A DNA stretch of 64,000 bases from Megaustenia siamemsis (Eukaryota > Mollusca > Gastropoda > Stylommatophora > Ariophantidae), in assembly GCA_032433765.1 (NCBI GenBank), contig JAVIAB010000073.1, positions 55,417,565-55,481,564 of the forward strand, written 5' to 3'. Each line of letters starts with the position of its first letter. The first letter of the stretch is position 1. The notes under the pieces are model-generated. The model had not been told where the DNA came from and searched no databases. It was given only the letters and a program-made list of their open reading frames with translations. Positions 17,211-60,180 of the stretch are shown here, one piece after another. Both the position numbers and the translations under genes were made by a program.

Positions 17211-18570
17211 CTAAGTGCATTCAGAAAGTAATGAACCATATCGGTTTTCTCAGGAATCTATAATTCATAAAGTATTAAATTTTTACACAGTACATATGGA
17301 TATGTCATGTAAACATCGGTATAATTCAACATAATCCCCATCCACTTGTACAGCTTTACGCCAGCGCGGCTTATGTGCATGTATTCCTAGCCGGCACCAG
17401 TCTTCATCTTGACTGTGTAGCCATCTCATCACTGCATGAATTACCCTTCATCATCTTCAACTTTGTTTCACGGAGGTCATCTTTAAGTGTACCAAAGAAA
17501 TGGAAATCAGGGGGTGCCAAATCATGGCTGTAAGGTGGATGGGGGAATACAGTCCAACCCAATCTAGTGATTGCTTCCCGTGTTGCCAGGCTTGTGTGAG
17601 GGCGTGCATTATCGTGAAGGAGAAGCAGGTCTGCTGGATTGTTGTGCGGCCGAACTCTGAGACGACGTTGATTGAATTTTTTTTTTTCAATGTCTTAATG
17701 TAAGCTTGCGAATTGATTGTCTCTCCTCTTGTCATAACACCCACACGAGTCACACCTTCAAAGTCCCAATTGATAGTAATTGTGGCCTTACCAGATGAAG
17801 GAGATGTCTTGAATTTCTTTCCTCGTAGTGAGTGCGGATGATGCCACACTATTGAGTGTCTTTTTGTCTCAGGTTCAAAGGCAATTATAAACACTCCCAG
17901 ATTCTCTAAGGTTTGTGCAAGATGGGTTCCATGAAATCTGACAAATGATCACCGATTACAAAGAAAAGCAATTTCTTCTAAACGGTTTCAAAATGATGTG
18001 CACAGGTTTTGTCACCTGTAACAATCTTAGCCTAAAAGTTCATCAACATTGAAATCCTCCAACAGTTTAGAAGAAATTGCTGTTCTTGGTAATCGGTGCT
18101 CATTTGTGAGATTTCATGGAACCCATCTTGCACAAACCTTAGAGAGTACAGAAGTTTTTATAATTGCATTTGCACTACCAATGTTGACTGACAACTTTAA
18201 GCCAGTTGTTGAGTAGTGTGGCGCTTATTAACAAGAATGCCATCAGCGCATTTAAACATCTAAGCACTGGTGGCTGTGGCAGGTCATCCACAGCGCGGCC
18301 GATCAAGAAGTTCCGTATCTCCGCTTTCCGACTCCTTTATTCTCTGAATCCAGCGACTTAATGTGCTTCTGTCGACTGCATAACTTCCATACACATCACA
18401 TAGGCGCTTGTGAATGTTCACAACAGTTTCTCCTCTAAAACGAGAAATTCTATCACAATTCGCCGCTTATAACGCAAGTTGCTAACATGCTCCAATTCAA
18501 CAGTTTAGTGCAGTAGTATTATTTGGCCGATTGCAGTGCAATTTGGTGAACACTATCAATACATATCATA
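17211..18570 (-). mobile_element. Mariner-type transposase relic
   Basis: On the minus strand the frame at 17457-17894 contains FEPETKRHSIVWHHPHS, GKATITINWDFEGV and MTRGETINSQAYI, the standard mid-portion of a mariner transposase (catalytic DDD region). A frameshift near 17640 moves the HDNARPH-like segment to another frame (the complement of 17600-17640). Upstream frames (18480-18230) give a helix-turn-helix-like N-terminus with SRWIQRIKESE-like text. The low-coordinate end begins GTGCATTCAGAAAGTAATGA at about 17217, a plausible terminus; no matching inverted terminus was found at the other end. It is interrupted by an inverted duplicate (17904-18144) and many stops, so it is inactive. Confidence 0.85.
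17904..18144. repeat. 80-bp inverted repeat inside the mariner relic
   Basis: Arms 17904-17983 and 18065-18144 are reverse complements at roughly 90% identity (for example TGCAAGATGGGTTCCATGAA versus its complement), with an 81-bp loop. Both arms encode the same transposase segment, one in each direction, so a piece of the gene was copied back in inverted orientation. Confidence 0.85.
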
Positions 18571-52779: not shown

Positions 52780-53009
52780 CTGGGTTCACCCAGCCTCTGA
52801 AATCGTGACTGCATATATTCACCAAACTCAAAATAGGAACTAACAGCCAATGCTACTCTACCCTGAATAACATGACAACAAAACATATTCTACAGGATTG
52901 CCCCCAGTACACAGACATGAGAGGGACAAAGCCCACACCCACCTCCCTGGAAGAGAAACAATACCTGACAATCGAATCACTGAAACAGACAGCTGCCTTC
53001 ATAAAAGAG
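52780..53009 (+). mobile_element. Non-LTR retrotransposon C-terminus, interrupted by the palindromic element
   Basis: Plus-strand frame gives NMTTKHILQDCPQYTDMRG (about 52867-52923), TSLEEKQYLTIESLKQTAAF and IKE, then the palindromic element starts at 53010. Reading resumes at 60043 as KESVVLV and a stop. The TTKHILQDCP motif belongs to the zinc-binding tail of one common LINE type. It is the target into which the 7-kb element inserted. Confidence 0.75.
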
Positions 53010-53532
53010 AGTAGTATACAAGGGTCCATTTGACCCGCATTGTGGTGCTAAATTAACAAAGATATATAGTGTGGTGCGCGGTGCGCCAAATGTACACGAG
53101 AGACAGGGGGAGTTAACCGTAACATTTCGTGTCCGGATGTTGACCTCTACTCTCGGTGACCCCGGAAGTGACCTGTTTATGTCTGGTGTATGCTGACTTT
53201 GGAGTTCTTGATGTACTTGATCAATAGTGATATGTTAGTAGATTATACAACATCAATGAAAAACATTAAATATAAAACAAAAGACAAAAGATATATTTTA
53301 TTGTTTTATTATCTCAATAGGTGTATAACATACATTGATATTATATATCATTACAAACATATTCAGTACATTCAGTAAATAGATAGTACAAGGATAACAT
53401 TTATTTATAGCTATGTAGTTGGGTGTCTGCTTAGCGTTGTACCATAAATGAAGCATAAGGGGTGAAACAGTTAGAGATTCTCGGTTAGTCTAAGCTGGTA
53501 GTGTAAATATGTTCCTCGGTGTTAGTGGTTCG

Positions 53533-53537
<5 letters not shown>

Positions 53538-53576
<39 letters not shown>

Positions 53577-53674
53577 CTCTCTCTCTCTCTCTCTCTCTAC
53601 TATTCCAGCCTAGATTTCCCTCCATTGAAACACTTACTCATTCTCTCCATTTATCCCTATCATCTCGCCTTCCT

Positions 53675-53705
<31 letters not shown>

Positions 53706-53934
53706 TTCTCCCCTAGCCGCTCTTAGACTTCTAACCTATCAGTCCACCCTCCGCCTCTCCCTTTAGCTCCCCCACCCTCCCTCATATTTTTAGCGTCCCT
53801 CCTATTGTAACACTTGATTATTCTCACCATTTATACCTAGCATCGCGCCTTCTTTCTCATAGACTTCTCTCTCTCGCACGCTCTCTCTCTTCTAACCCCT
53901 ACTAGACTTCTCTCCTACCATTCCACCTTTCTTC

Positions 53935-53998
<64 letters not shown>
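53538..53998. repeat. CT microsatellites in the left arm
   Basis: Three (CT)n blocks separated by CT-rich unique sequence with AGACTTCT phrases; mirrored as (GA)n blocks at 59033-59220 and 59375-59517 in the right arm. Lengths differ between arms. Confidence 0.93.
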
Positions 53999-54989
53999 AC
54001 CTCGCCTAGCGTTCTGCCTTCATGCGTATTTTTACCTTACCGCCAGTGTAACACATTAATAACATTGAATATCAATTACACAAAGACTTGAAATATCTAC
54101 TTTTTAAAGAACCAATAAGATAAACATATGAAAAACGAAGGAATAATACACTCGACAAGGCTTAACATACGTACTTTATACACATCACCATTAATACAAC
54201 TGAAATTCCATTAATGATAACCTATCACATCGTTATGAGCTAAGAGAAAAACAGAAAAAAAAAATTCAACTTACACCGTAAAATATTCCACTACAACACA
54301 GACCGCTAGACTGACCAGTACTATGAAAATAAACGTCCGTGAATCAAGCACGCTTATAACACGAAGTCTCACATCCGACTAGTTTAAATATAATCTGGTA
54401 AATAAAAGTTAGACGACACTATTCCACCCTCGACTAACATCTAGGTTAACCAATCAGAGAAGAAGATTTCTATCGGACACCCATCAACGAAATGACTGAC
54501 CTCTGGATTAACTAATCAGAGAAGAGGATTACTGTTATCGTGATAACTGGCCTCATTTTCAACTTGAAGTGCTGTCGAGTATGATGCATGGGTTACTTTA
54601 AATCGATTCGGCCCCTGATACAATCCACCTAGCGGGTCAATGGTGGGGGAAATAATACAAGTGGCTGGTTACTTGAACGCGTTTTGACCCATGATGCAAT
54701 ACCAGGAGTTCCATGACAGTTATAAATAGTTGGATACAACGAGCAGAAAGTTATATTCAAGGTCCAAAATGTTAGACCAAATCACTAAGATTTTACCGCC
54801 AGAACACACAAATTTAGGCTCATATTCAAAAAGTCGACCTTAAAACCATACAAATCTACTCCCATACCCATAAAAGTTAGACACATCAAACAGATAATTA
54901 CTTCCAAACTCCAAAAAGTTAGACCAAATCACGCCTCGATCGTTCTCTAACATTGCGGAACTTGTGTCCCTCATATGCTATTTCAAAAG

Positions 54990-55246
54990 TGAGGCAAGGG
55001 CAGAAACCTAGGAGGCAAGGGCAGAAACCTAGGAGGCAAGGTCAGAAACCTAGGAGGCAAGGACAGAAAACTAGGAAGCAAAGGCTGAAAACAAGGAGGC
55101 AAGGGCAGAAACCTAGGAGGCAAGGGCAGAAACCTAAGAGGCAAGGACAGAAACCTAGGAGGCAAGGGCAGAAACCTAGGAGGCAAGGGCAGAAACCTAA
55201 GAGGCAAGGACAGAAAACTAGGAAGCAAAGGCAGAAACCTAGGAGG
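54990..55246. repeat. 21-bp minisatellite in left arm, ~12 units
   Basis: Unit GGCAAGGGCAGAAACCTAGG + A with variants (GACAGAAAACTAGGAAGCAA). It is read as a Lys/Arg/Gln-rich seven-residue period on one strand and Leu/Cys/Phe-rich on the other. It directly follows the end of the DNLCFF frame, replacing whatever coding sequence once came next. Confidence 0.95.
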
Positions 55247-55433
55247 CACCTCGATGGACAGCTAGACAACCGAAGAAGCAGAGATTATCATTGTAAACTT
55301 TAGAATGGGAATCGGTTTGAAGGATATTAATACCTTGATTTGATGCAATGTAGTGTGGGATATCTAGCAGACACCCTATAGGATAATCTTGAAGTTTATA
55401 AACATAAACACTCGTACTGACTAAGGCTTCCAA
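55239..55433 (-). pseudogene. Truncated polymerase-upstream (OTU-like) fragment, left arm
   Basis: 64 codons, identical in amino acid sequence to the frame in the other arm. Contains PIGCLLDIPHYIASNQGI, VYNDNLCFFGCLAVHRG and then a stop where the minisatellite begins. D-N-x-C-F-F-x-C-L-A-x-H is, as I remember it, a conserved block in proteins encoded just ahead of, or fused to, the Polinton protein-primed DNA polymerase, and it looks like the Asp-Asn-x-Cys centre of OTU-type cysteine proteases. The start shown is a TTG; the frame stays open about 20 codons further upstream, so the true start is unknown. Only the N-terminal part survives. Function is inferred, not shown. Confidence 0.5.
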
Positions 55434-55707
55434 GGTGTATTTGGTTGTCTCCCTATTTTTGTCTGCCTAACCTTATATATCACTTTCATTTAATCAATCG
55501 ATAAACGTTTCAAAGTCATTTCTGTTGTTAACTAACAAGGGTTTGTCTAACCCTGTCGCGTTATTTGAGCTTGCGTGAAAGTAACGCAGCCCCTGTGTCT
55601 CTCTATGTCTTAAAACTAGATGATGACTATAATTTTAGATTACACAAATAACACGTGGATACTAAAAAAAAACCAACGTTTCGAAAATAGGTTACTAAAG
55701 TAACATA

Positions 55708-55914
55708 CTATAACATTAAAGATCTAAGATAACACTTACTTTTATGTGTTTGAAGGTACGAGACACATCCATCGTCAACAACTGTAAGCGTATGTCTGAT
55801 TACAAGCTTCTCAGATATATACACTTGAAACCCTAGAGGTGTTACTAAAAATAGAACTGACCTCTGAGGCAATACCGGATGTGTTACTAAAAAGATTTTG
55901 ACGTATGATGGCAA
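55708..55914 (-). pseudogene. Mirrored open frame of unknown kind, left arm
   Basis: 68 codons; equivalent to 57062-57283 in the right arm, from which it differs by a two-codon insertion (HTLTVVDD versus HTVVDD) that keeps the frame. It contains LPQRSVLFLVTPLGFQVY and SYLQTHKSKCYLRSL. I do not recognise it. It lies on the same strand as the DNLCFF frame and upstream of it, so the two could be remnants of one gene. Confidence 0.35.
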
Positions 55915-56020
55915 TTTTATGAGTTTACCTCCTGACCATTTTTGGTGACTACGCCCCTGAATTCGAAGAAAAGCGTAAATTTTCGGTGAACATACCCGAA
56001 CATACTACTTCTCGTGCGGT

Positions 56021-56059
56021 TTTGGCACCGATACTGTACGAAACAGTATCGGTGCCAAA
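56021..56059. other. Perfect 17-bp hairpin in the spacer
   Basis: TTTGGCACCGATACTGT (56021-56037), loop ACGAA, and the exact complement (56043-56059). It sits 37 bp inside the left arm's inner end, between that end and the 135-bp array, and has no counterpart on the right side of the spacer. Confidence 0.95.
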
Positions 56060-56219
56060 TCTATTGTCTTTCGGTGCATGTCCGTGCACTTTTAGTGTGG
56101 GTAAACAACACCACCTACTACTAGCTTTTTGTTGTTTTTTTGTTGGAATTTGATATGTAGGGGTGTCAAATATTATGTGGGAGGTATGCCTTGAGGTTAT
56201 ATTTCAATTTTTTATCAAT

Positions 56220-57060
56220 TTCAGGGGCGTAACCCTCAAAAATGGTAAGAGGGTTACAATTTCAAAAGTGATTTTTAAGTAAATTTTTGGTATGGGGATG
56301 TCTAAAATAAAGTTTTAAGTAAGCCTTCGTGCTAAATTTACGATTTTTATCGATTTCAGGGGCGTAACCCTCAAAAATGTTAAGGGGGTAACAATTTAAA
56401 AAGTGTTTTTTGAGTTAATTTTTGGTGTGGGGATGTCTAAAATAAAGTTTTAGGTAAGCCTACGTCCTAAATTTACGATTTTTATCGATTCCATGGGCGT
56501 AACCCTCAAAAATGGTAAGGGGGTAACAATTTCAAAAGTGATATTTAAGTTAATTTTTGGTGTGGGGATGTCTAAAATAAAGTTTGGGGTATGCCTAGAG
56601 TGAAAATTTACGATTTTTTAAAACCGATTTCATGGGCGTAACCCTCAAAAATGGTCCGGGGGTAAAATCCTAAAAGTGGTTTTTAATGTAAATCTTTGTT
56701 ATGGGGATGTCTAAAATAAAGTTTGGGGTATGCCTACAGTGAAAATTTACGACTTTTACCGATTTCATGGGCGTAATCCTCAAAAACGGTAAGGGGGGTA
56801 ACAATTTCAAAAGTGATTTTTAAGTTAATTTTTGGTGTGGGGATGTCTAAAATAAAGTTTGGGGTATGCCTAGAGTAAAAATTTACGATTTTTATCGATT
56901 CCATAGGCGTAACCCTCAAAAATGATAAGGGGGGTAACAATTTCAAAAGTGATTTTTAAGTAAATTTTTGGTATGGGGATGTCTAAAAAAAAGTTTGGGG
57001 TATGCCTAGAGAGAAAATTTACGCTTTTCGTCGAATTCAGGGGCGTAGTCACCAAAAATG
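56220..57060. repeat. 135-bp tandem array in the spacer, ~6 units
   Basis: Units start GGGGCGTAACCCTCAAAAATGG or a variant at about 56224, 56359, 56495, 56634, 56769, 56905 and a diverged one at 57040 (GGGGCGTAGTCACC). The last unit straddles the inner end of the right arm, and its inverted counterpart is at the inner end of the left arm (about 55930-55984). Thus the palindrome's inner breakpoint lies inside this array. Minus-strand frames through it are a period artefact (135 = 45 codons). Confidence 0.93.
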
Positions 57061-57061
57061 G

Positions 57062-57283
57062 TCAGGAGGTAAACTCATAAAATTGCCATCATACGTCAAA
57101 ATCTTTTTAGTAACACATCCGGTATTGCCTCAGAGGTCAGTTCTATTTTTAGTAACACCTCTAGGGTTTCAAGTGTATATATCTGAGAAGCTTGTAATCA
57201 GACATACAGTTGTTGACGATGGATGTGTCTCGTACCTTCAAACACATAAAAGTAAGTGTTATCTTAGATCTTTACTGTTATAG
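57062..57283 (+). pseudogene. Mirrored open frame of unknown kind, right arm
   Basis: Counterpart of 55708-55914, with HTVVDD and a shorter version of the same peptide. No recognised domain. Being open in both arms despite an indel of exactly two codons hints at past coding constraint, but the sample is small. Confidence 0.35.
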
Positions 57284-57555
57284 TATGTTACTTTAGTAAC
57301 CTATTTTCGAAACGTTGGTTTTTTTAGTATCCACATGTTATTTGTGTAATCTAAAATTATAGTCATCATCTAGTTTTAAGACATAGAGAGACACACGGGC
57401 TGCGTTACTTTCACGCAAGCTCAAATAACGCGACAGGGTTAGACAAACCCTTGTTAGTTAACAACAGAAATGACTTTGAAACGTTTATCGATTGATTAAA
57501 TGAAAGTGATATATTAGGTTATACAGACAAAAATAGGGAGACAACCAAATACACC

Positions 57556-57750
57556 TTGGAAGCCTTAGTCAGTACGAGTGTTTATGTTTATAAACTTCAA
57601 GATTATCCTATAGGGTGTCTGCTAGATATCCCACACTACATTGCATCAAATCAAGGTATTAATATCCTTCAAACCGATTCCCATTCTAAAGTTTACAATG
57701 ATAATCTCTGCTTCTTCGGTTGTCTAGCTGTCCATCGAGGTGCCTCCTAG
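57556..57750 (+). pseudogene. Truncated polymerase-upstream (OTU-like) fragment, right arm
   Basis: Same 64-residue frame as 55239-55433, here on the plus strand, and open upstream to about 57496. It points outward, toward the element's right end, and stops where the minisatellite begins. The upstream DNA contains a GTTAACAACAGAAATGACTT region shared with the left arm. Confidence 0.5.
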
Positions 57751-58039
57751 GTTTCTGCCTTTGCTTCCTAGTTTTCTGTCCTTGCCTCTTAGGTTTCTGC
57801 CCTTGCCTCCTAGGTTTCTGCCCTTGCCTCCTAGGTTTCTGCCCTTGCCTCCTAGGTTTCTGCCCTTGCCTCCTAGGTTTCTGTCCTTGCCTCTTAGGTT
57901 TCTGCCCTTGCCTCCTAGGTTTCTGCCCTTGCCTCCTTGTTATCAGCCTTTGCTTCCTAGTTTTCTGTCCTTGCCTCCTAGGTTTCTGACCTTGCCTCCT
58001 AGGTTTCTGCCCTTGCCTCCTAGGTTTCTGCCCTTGCCT
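57740..58039. repeat. 21-bp minisatellite in right arm, ~14 units
   Basis: Same unit as the left arm in reverse orientation, with two more copies. The internal order of variant units is otherwise the same, so the array was present before the arms were copied and later changed by whole units. Confidence 0.95.
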
Positions 58040-59029
58040 CACTTTTGAAATAGCATATGAGGGACACAAGTTCCGCAATGTTAGAGAACGATCGAGGCGT
58101 GATTTGGTCTAACTTTTTGGAGTTTGGAAGTAATTATCTGTTTGATGTGTCTAACTTTTATGGGCACGGGAGTAGATTTGTATGGTTTTAAGGTCGACTT
58201 TTCGAATATGAGCCTAAATTTGTGTGTTCTGGCGGTAAAATCTTAGTGATTTGGTCTAACATTTTGGACCTTGAATAAAACTTCCTGCTCGTTGTATCCA
58301 ACTATTTATAACTGTCATGGAACTCCTGGTATTGCATCAGGGGTCAAAACGCGTTCAAGTAACCCGCCACTTGTATTATTTCCCCCACCATTGACCCGCT
58401 AGGTGGATTGTATCAGGGGCCGAATCGATTTAAAGTAACCCATGCATCATACTCGACAGCACTTCAAGTTGAAAATGAGGCCAGTTATCTCGATAACAGT
58501 AATCCTCTTCTCTGATTAGTTAATCCAGAGGTCAGTCATTTCGTTGATGGGTGTCCGACAGAAATCTTCTTCTCTGATTGGTTAACCTAGATGTTAGTCG
58601 AGGGTGGAATAGTGTCGTCTAACTTTTATTTACCAGATTATATTTAAACTAGTCGGATGTGAGACTTCGTGTTATAAGCGTGCTTGATTCACGGACGTTT
58701 ATTTTCATAGTACTGGTCAGTCTAGCGGTCTGTGTTGTAGTGGAATATTTTACGGTGTAAGTTGAATTTTTTTTTCTGTTTTTCTCTTAGCTCATAACGA
58801 TGTGATAGGTTATCATTAATGGAATTTCAGTTGTATTAATGGTGATGTGTATAAAGTACGTATGTTAAGCCTTGTCGAGTGTATTATTCCTTCGTTTTTC
58901 ATATGTTTATCTTATTGGTTCTTTAAAAAGTAGATATTTCAAGTCTTTTTGTAATTGATATTCAATGTTATTAATGTGTTACACTGGCGGTAAGGTAAAA
59001 ATACGCATGAAGGCAGAACGCTAGGCGAG

Positions 59030-59074
<45 letters not shown>

Positions 59075-59112
59075 GAAAGGTGGAATGGTAGGAGAGAAGT
59101 CTAGTAGGGGTT

Positions 59113-59149
<37 letters not shown>

Positions 59150-60042
59150 AGAAGAAAGGTGAAATGGTAGGAGAGAAGTCTAGTAGGGGTTAGAAGAGAG
59201 AGAGCGAGCGAGAGAGAGAAGCCTATGAGAAAGAAGGCGCGATGCTAGGTATAAATGGTGAGAATAATCAAGTGTTACAATAGGAGGGACGCTAAAAATA
59301 TGAGGGAGGGTGGGGAACTAAAGGGAGAGGCGGAGGGTGGACTGATAGGTTAGAAGTCTAAGAGCGGCTAGGGGAGAAAGAGAGAGAGAGAGAGAGAGGG
59401 AGAAGGAAGGCGAGATGATAGGGATAAATGGAGAGAATGAGTAAGTGTTTCAATTGAGGGAAATCTAGGCTGGAATAGTAGAGAGAGAGAGAGAGTGCGA
59501 GAGAGAGAGAGAGAGATAGCGAACCACTAACACCGAGGAACATATTTACACTACCAGCTTAGACTAACCGAGAATCTCTAACTGTTTCATCCCTTATGCT
59601 TCATTTATGGTACAACGCTAAGCAGCAACCCAACTACATAGCTATAAATAAATGTTATCCTTGTACTATATATTTACTCAATGTACTGAATATGTTTGTA
59701 ATGATATATAATATCAATGTATGTTATACAGCTATTGAGATAATAAAAGAATAAAATATATCTTTTGTCTTTTGTTTTATATTTAATGTTTTTCATTGAT
59801 GTTGTATAATCTACTAACCTATCACTATTGATCAAGTACATCAAGAACTCCAAAGTCAGCATACACCAGACATAAACAGGTCACTTCCGGGGTCACCGAG
59901 AGTAGAGGTCAACATCCGGACACGAAATGTTACGGTTAACCCCCCCTGTCTCTCGTGTACATTTGGCGCACCGCGCACCACACTATATATCTTTGTTAAT
60001 TTAGCACCACAATGCAGGTCAAAAGGACCCTTGTATACTACT

Positions 60043-60180
60043 AAAGAGTCCGTAGTCCTAGTCTGAATTAGCCATGATCGCAGAAGAAGAAATCGTGACT
60101 TTATCTGGAAAAAATGGGGCCGCCTGGCTTGATACTGACCACATCATCAACATATATGTTGTTAGTTAGAGACAATTGAT
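60043..60180 (+). mobile_element. 3' end of the LINE interrupted by the palindromic element
   Basis: Starts with the second AAAGAG copy and completes the reading frame (KESVVLV, stop at about 60064-60066). A 3' UTR containing GATCGCAGAAGAAGAA follows. The right boundary is approximate. Confidence 0.65.

Follow-up and report, generated by a model that had tools for sequence, protein, structure and literature searches.

The element at positions 53010–60042 of a 64,000-nucleotide stretch of the gastropod Megaustenia siamemsis (contig JAVIAB010000073.1, positions 55,417,565–55,481,564; hereafter the window) belongs to a large palindromic family of transposable elements that derives from group I Polintons/Mavericks and that probably replicates through a protein-primed hairpin and inserts by means of an integrase acting in trans. 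The family is amplified and polymerase-only rather than a one-off defective genome. It is a Polinton-derived palindromic polymerase element, which we set apart from Polintons proper because our search of the regions read turned up neither an integrase nor virion genes, and no short inverted repeats. We found no description of palindromic polymerase-only Polintons in the literature searched, whose coverage mostly stops short of subscription journals.

The window element is 7,033 bp long and is bounded on both sides by AAAGAG. Both of its ends read AGTAGTATACAAGGGTCC, of the AGTAGT...ACTACT type, and the alignment of its inverted arms shows 39 substitutions over 2,928 ungapped columns (1.33%) and nine gaps, among them gaps in CT runs, one 44-bp unit and a 42-bp gap inside a 21-bp array. 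The palindrome, its matching ends and the AAAGAG duplication had been described in an initial annotation, and the arm alignment, the end reads and the terminus matches across the family bear them out.

A Family of Palindromes Shares the Terminus

The genome from which the window comes, 2.59 Gb in 155 contigs, was searched with the 27-bp family end, which is of the AGTAGTATACAA-type, allowing at most two mismatches. The search gave 682 matches, 332 forward and 350 reverse, against none on either strand for the reversed 27-bp pattern used as a control, which excludes chance as the source of the terminus. Among the first 100 of the 682 termini, for which positions were listed, 76 formed 38 facing neighbour pairs less than 15 kb apart and spanning 6.8–12.6 kb; three neighbouring pairs below 15 kb were not facing, and two wider facing pairs, at 22 kb and 47 kb, lay beyond the 15-kb cut-off. 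The 22-kb pair (contig C51, 152618317–152640418) consists of exact termini and may reflect either one insertion nested in another or an element of larger size. A 601-bp query starting at 53004 found 41 matches in the genome (40 of 5,336 candidates scored), 30 of which made up 15 opposed pairs.

We fetched 19 further copies, giving 20 stretches in total, and located both ends in 18 of these, the window included, and one end only in L029 and L031. A perfect 6-bp duplication flanked 13 of the 18, and all 13 duplications were different, as the initial annotation had expected of other palindromic copies. In L027 and L028 the duplication fits once the right end is taken as (ACT)3: the right terminus of L027 (C51:133173205–133182271) apparently reads (ACT)3 and is followed by the perfect duplication GTAGAT, and its twin L028 is found on that contig too, at a distance of about 600 kb. 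As their flanks are identical, the two are apparently a single duplicated locus. The duplication of L024 matches at five of six positions, and the ends of L030 and L033 are discordant, with no matching 6-bp duplication.

Five copies of 8.5–8.9 kb (L016, L017, L018, L026 and L027) are palindromic to the centre, and their arms differ by 0.05–0.22% when the innermost 300 alignment columns are left out. A terminus-like central motif, AGTAGTAT....GGGT, was present in 15 of 18 copies and was not found at the centre of the coding copy L057. One 4,525-bp copy (L034:304–4828) has a single complete arm and the centre, plus a 161-bp second end that is 100% identical to the first, within a perfect GTCGAC duplication; we considered it as a surviving monomeric ancestor and rejected the idea, deletion of one arm accounting for it equally well. 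Around the centre of a 12-kb copy, a 438-bp unit is repeated several times (L019:4781–7892), each unit holding a 118-residue open frame.

Coding Members Carry a Polymerase Gene in Each Arm

In L030, a piece encoding the C-terminal 205 residues of a polymerase lies 507 bp inward of the family terminus. Of 221 candidates in a protein search with this piece, 28 were relatives (E value 3.4e-66 and 59% identity for the best), five of them listed with Pfam DNA_pol_B_2, from sources that include Littorina, Nucella and Pecten. Within the window's own genome, the piece gave 150 scored matches of 8,552 candidates, and these resolved into 54 head-to-head pairs and 42 unpaired matches, with no convergent and no same-strand pairs. 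In five of the 54 pairs, both arms have open frames of 1,400 residues or more. Three pairs lay within listed elements with exact 27-bp ends, 484–503 bp from the left terminus, and the end motif was near the polymerase in ten of 12 excised loci, L054 and L055 being the two in which it was not found. Flanking duplications matched in all four polymerase-bearing copies with both flanks read (ATCGTC, GATGCC, TTCGTT and TGTGTG).

The coding relatives are themselves palindromes, of about 11.6–12.6 kb, with a PolB gene in each arm reading outward. From the outside in, an arm consists of the AGTAGT terminus, about 0.5 kb of sequence, a PolB gene of about 1,475 codons, 135-bp repeats and a short central loop, the repeats and the loop being known from one copy. 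The ratio of nonsynonymous to synonymous changes (pN/pS) in the polymerase gene of coding copies is low in each arm. The structural model of the polymerase predicts a protein-primed type with a phi29-like fold and the VSR-like insertion of about 140 residues that PMC10328495, in its available text, gives for the PolB of group I Mavericks. Of the viral structures, the PolB proteins of bidnavirus, adintovirus and MELD virus gave some of the best matches to the model. A further comparison, with solved structures, re-ranked Foldseek's own matches and does not exclude families outside Foldseek's list. The 6-bp duplications, the (AGT)2//(ACT)2 ends and this polymerase agree with the Polinton/Maverick ancestry first proposed for the window element, and the coding fragments noticed in its arms proved to be part of the same PolB gene. 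The conserved N-terminal part of PolB may resemble an OTU-type cysteine protease.

Other searches returned little. The window frames and the family polymerase pieces gave zinc fingers or nothing useful against Pfam, NCBIfam and PHROGs, and the window polymerase fragment, used as a query, found no relatives. PF03175 matched 12 places at six loci of the window's genome, none belonging to the palindromic family. In viral contigs, neither the L030 piece nor the terminus pattern had a match; six bacterial or archaeal matches to the terminus pattern in genome contigs were discarded, since 257 billion bases should yield as many by chance when the pattern has 17 bases.

Arm Similarity within and between Copies

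We compared the terminal regions of 14 two-armed copies; L030 and L033, being discordant, were set aside. In all five copies whose nearest other copy was more than 3% away (3–7%; L019, L021, L024, L026 and L032), the arms were at most 0.4% apart over the terminal 515 bp. The arms of a copy were strictly mutually closest in eight of the 14 in the terminal region, and mutually closest in seven of nine copies in the middle segment, four of nine in the coding fragment and two of three pairs in the PolB region. This likeness within copies at the termini fits a replication in which one arm serves as the source of both.

Integrase-Bearing Polintons in the Same Genome

We found no integrase by eye among frames of at least 110 residues in the 19 fetched copies, nor in the half of the coding copy L057 that was read, where PolB is the sole long sense frame; ATPase, protease and capsid genes were likewise not seen by eye in these regions. 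There is little room for further genes, as a 12.2-kb palindrome holds two PolB frames of 4.4 kb each.

The genome does contain Polintons with an integrase. One of these, on C137 at 9.13 Mb, has frames that exceed the Pfam cut-offs for DNA_pol_B_2, for the rve integrase and for an A32-type ATPase; beside its integrase gene is a long tandem repeat with an 853-residue frame of 15-residue period (L043:2369–4930). We identified 116 scored integrase relatives of 1,871 candidates. A further polymerase family has frames of as many as 1,358 residues, and 35 of its 44 matches had a listed integrase within 4 kb, convergent in all 35. We therefore rejected separate integrase-only elements, and the further family looks like integrase-bearing Polintons. 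One of the 116 integrase matches lay within 60 kb of any of 96 palindromic-polymerase places drawn from the 150 polymerase matches.

The only divergent pair among the 116 integrase matches is at C73:71299468–71307943, where integrase and polymerase units stand head to head (polymerase +, integrase −, integrase +, polymerase −) and 501 bp beside the integrase are 100% identical to the mirror copy. This is an integrase-bearing Polinton in palindromic form.

Anatomy of the Window Copy

The window copy is a gene-poor, worn and internally reduced member of the family, with the following features.

53004..53009, no strand: left target-site duplication AAAGAG, read at the flank
53010..55984, + strand: left arm, terminus outward at 53010; inverted match to 57013–60042 with 39/2928 substitutions
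53010..53027, + strand: left terminus AGTAGTATACAAGGGTCC with (AGT)2 end motif, as in vertebrate Mavericks (available text of PMC8097293)
54991..55248, + strand: 21-bp tandem array of the left arm, 12.3 copies
55242..55577, − strand: left-arm PolB-gene fragment, broken by stops; about residues 261–372 of the 1477-residue frame of L057, 92% DNA identity to L057:4162–4553
56021..56059, no strand: central hairpin, 17-bp stem and 5-nt loop; z −6.35 over 141 nt
56209..57072, + strand: 135-bp tandem array of the right arm, 6.4 copies; left counterpart missing in the window copy
57013..60042, − strand: right arm, terminus outward at 60042; inverted match to the left arm
57412..57747, + strand: right-arm PolB-gene fragment with one stop; match to the L057 PolB frame
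57741..58040, + strand: 21-bp tandem array of the right arm, 14.3 copies
60025..60042, − strand: right terminus, (ACT)2 end
60043..60048, no strand: right target-site duplication AAAGAG, read at the flank

The inner 1,028 bp consist of the central hairpin and the 135-bp array of the right arm, with no neutral spacer. None of 200 shuffles of the 141-nt stretch holding the hairpin gave an equal fold. In complete relatives such as L027, the 135-bp array flanks the centre on either side, and the window copy therefore appears to have lost its left array. Judged from the sequence, an assembly echo is an unlikely source of the palindrome, because the arms differ by both substitutions and indels and other copies carry different 6-bp duplications. 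Elsewhere in the window, a frame at 17404–17694, picked out by eye, resembles the terminal part of a mariner transposase.

Replication Model and Alternatives

The family's anatomy suggests selfish DNA that replicates via a hairpin. With a terminal protein as primer, the polymerase would begin synthesis at the AGTAGT end, and one strand would be displaced; this strand, being self-complementary, would fold into a hairpin with a single duplex terminus, and synthesis from that terminus around the loop would yield the full duplex. With both arms copied from one, the arms would be identical at insertion and diverge only later. Insertion with a 6-bp duplication would be performed by the integrase of the integrase-bearing Polintons in the same genome, whose supply in trans is possible. 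After its insertion, the window copy would have lost the left inner array while its arms drifted 1.3% apart. Sliding at repeated ends occurs in protein-primed systems, and the extra ACT of L027 may be a trace of it. Put more generally, and tentatively, the family may represent a new class of hairpin-genome transposon with one gene, a single foldable strand that is protein-primed, copied round its loop and inserted either by its own VSR-type nuclease or by a borrowed Polinton integrase. It would then be a selfish replicon reduced to a single enzyme and the mirror copy of it.

Several observations weigh against hairpin replication with an integrase in trans. We infer the replication mode from anatomy, and most of the other family copies have loops of 0.3–4 kb rather than near zero. 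The terminal arms of the window copy are 2.14% apart and 1.17% from the nearest other arm. It is one of six of the 14 copies whose terminal arms were not strictly mutually closest (with L017, L022, L023, L025 and L027), five of these six being ties or near-ties inside near-identical clusters. The other regions had exceptions as well: the window and L029 among nine copies in the middle segment, five of nine in the coding fragment, with ties at zero or one difference, and one of three pairs in the PolB region. Whole-arm divergence is 2.94% in L032 and 1.26% in L019, part of the divergence sitting in poorly aligning tandem arrays. The C73 polymerase piece scored no Pfam family, PF03175 being present in its relatives. 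Finally, the half of a coding copy that was read (L057) showed no integrase, and of the 44 copies of a Polinton-type integrase on contigs with listed termini, none lay within 25 kb of a listed terminus.

Long inverted repeats can undergo gene conversion, and the arms are alike in most copies, so their likeness might be kept by chromosomal conversion after insertion rather than by replication of the element. We consider this rather improbable: the terminal regions of L030 and L033, 10.9% and 23.8% apart, were not evened out, for which reason conversion seems weak, and the differences between the window arms are spread over most of their length. It is also unlikely that the VSR-like nuclease domain of the polymerase makes the staggered target cut itself, which would leave a complete one-gene hairpin transposon with no need of an integrase. 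Group I Mavericks have an integrase of their own, the 6-bp duplications and AGT ends suit a Polinton integrase, the nuclease activity of the domain is putative and the Pfam Vsr model stayed below its cut-off in the polymerase relatives. The VSR-like insertion is, moreover, general in group I Mavericks according to the available text of PMC10328495.

The initial annotation had proposed that the window element may be a single defective snap-back genome of a 15–25-kb Polinton sharing its terminus. Its Polinton-type ends and head-to-head structure agree with that account, and the structure is seen both in the inverted arms of the window and in the palindromic coding relatives. A single defective genome is nevertheless very improbable given hundreds of termini, at least 54 head-to-head polymerase pairs, coding members that are themselves palindromic and facing termini at 6.8–12.6 kb; among the termini listed, we found no large Polinton with the family terminus. 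The existence of the family refutes the account for the window copy, and a founding snap-back of a large Polinton at the origin of the family is possible. A conventional cut-and-paste transposon of the foldback kind, with very long inverted repeats as in the Galileo, Tetris or Mutator types and with the polymerase fragment as captured cargo, is extremely improbable and already largely refuted. Long arms, internal tandem repeats and a middle domain do recall foldback elements, as described in the available portion of PMC4079207, and many copies have sizeable loops, but the duplications are of 6 bp as opposed to the 8–10 bp that the same source gives for Tetris, the ends are (AGT)2, some copies have near-zero loops and the coding copies hold a low-pN/pS polymerase gene in each arm.

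Comparison with Known Systems

The family shares with group I Polintons/Mavericks the 6-bp duplications, the (AGT)2//(ACT)2 ends and a protein-primed-type PolB with a VSR-like insertion, the duplications and end motif being those of Mavericks in the accessible part of PMC8097293. It differs from them in being palindromic, with PolB once per arm, and the regions read yielded no gene for an integrase, ATPase, protease or capsid. The same source gives 12.7–24.6 kb for intact vertebrate Mavericks and 46–1,447 bp for their inverted repeats, whereas the family copies read or paired span 4.5–12.6 kb with arms mostly of 1.6–5 kb. Polinton inverted repeats are far shorter than the element, whereas the arms reach the centre in L016, L017, L018, L026 and L027. 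Galileo and Tetris foldback elements resemble the family in their very long inverted repeats, internal tandem arrays and many gene-free copies; in contrast, its coding members carry PolB and not a Mutator- or P-type transposase, and the 8–10-bp duplications and matching transposase of Tetris-like or Mutator-type elements were not found. IS3EU/GingerRoot elements also make 6-bp duplications but have TA..TA termini (PMC10045372, available text), whereas the family ends are AG..CT. Polintons are central to current thinking about how large DNA viruses, linear plasmids and adenoviruses arose, as the available part of PMC6431247 sets out.

In the family, a polymerase-only element may stand in a satellite relation to integrase-bearing Polintons, which would make it a natural example of such a relation, and the family yields a testable prediction on the upkeep of arm identity. 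Capsid genes are present in bidnavirus, adintovirus and MELD virus, and for none of these viruses do we know of an integrated palindromic form in which PolB stands alone. Adenovirus and linear plasmids produce snap-back defective genomes. For adeno-associated virus, 5'-snapback genomes are described in PMC8235507 (available text). If the proposed replication is true, such genomes, mainly known as replication errors, can become an inherited lifestyle; this would be shown by a family that is fully palindromic, lacks virion and integration genes and is still multiplied. Like snap-back defective genomes, the family would be self-complementary linear DNA from a terminally primed replicon, a form deduced from integrated copies; unlike them, it is integrated, amplified and polymerase-coding.

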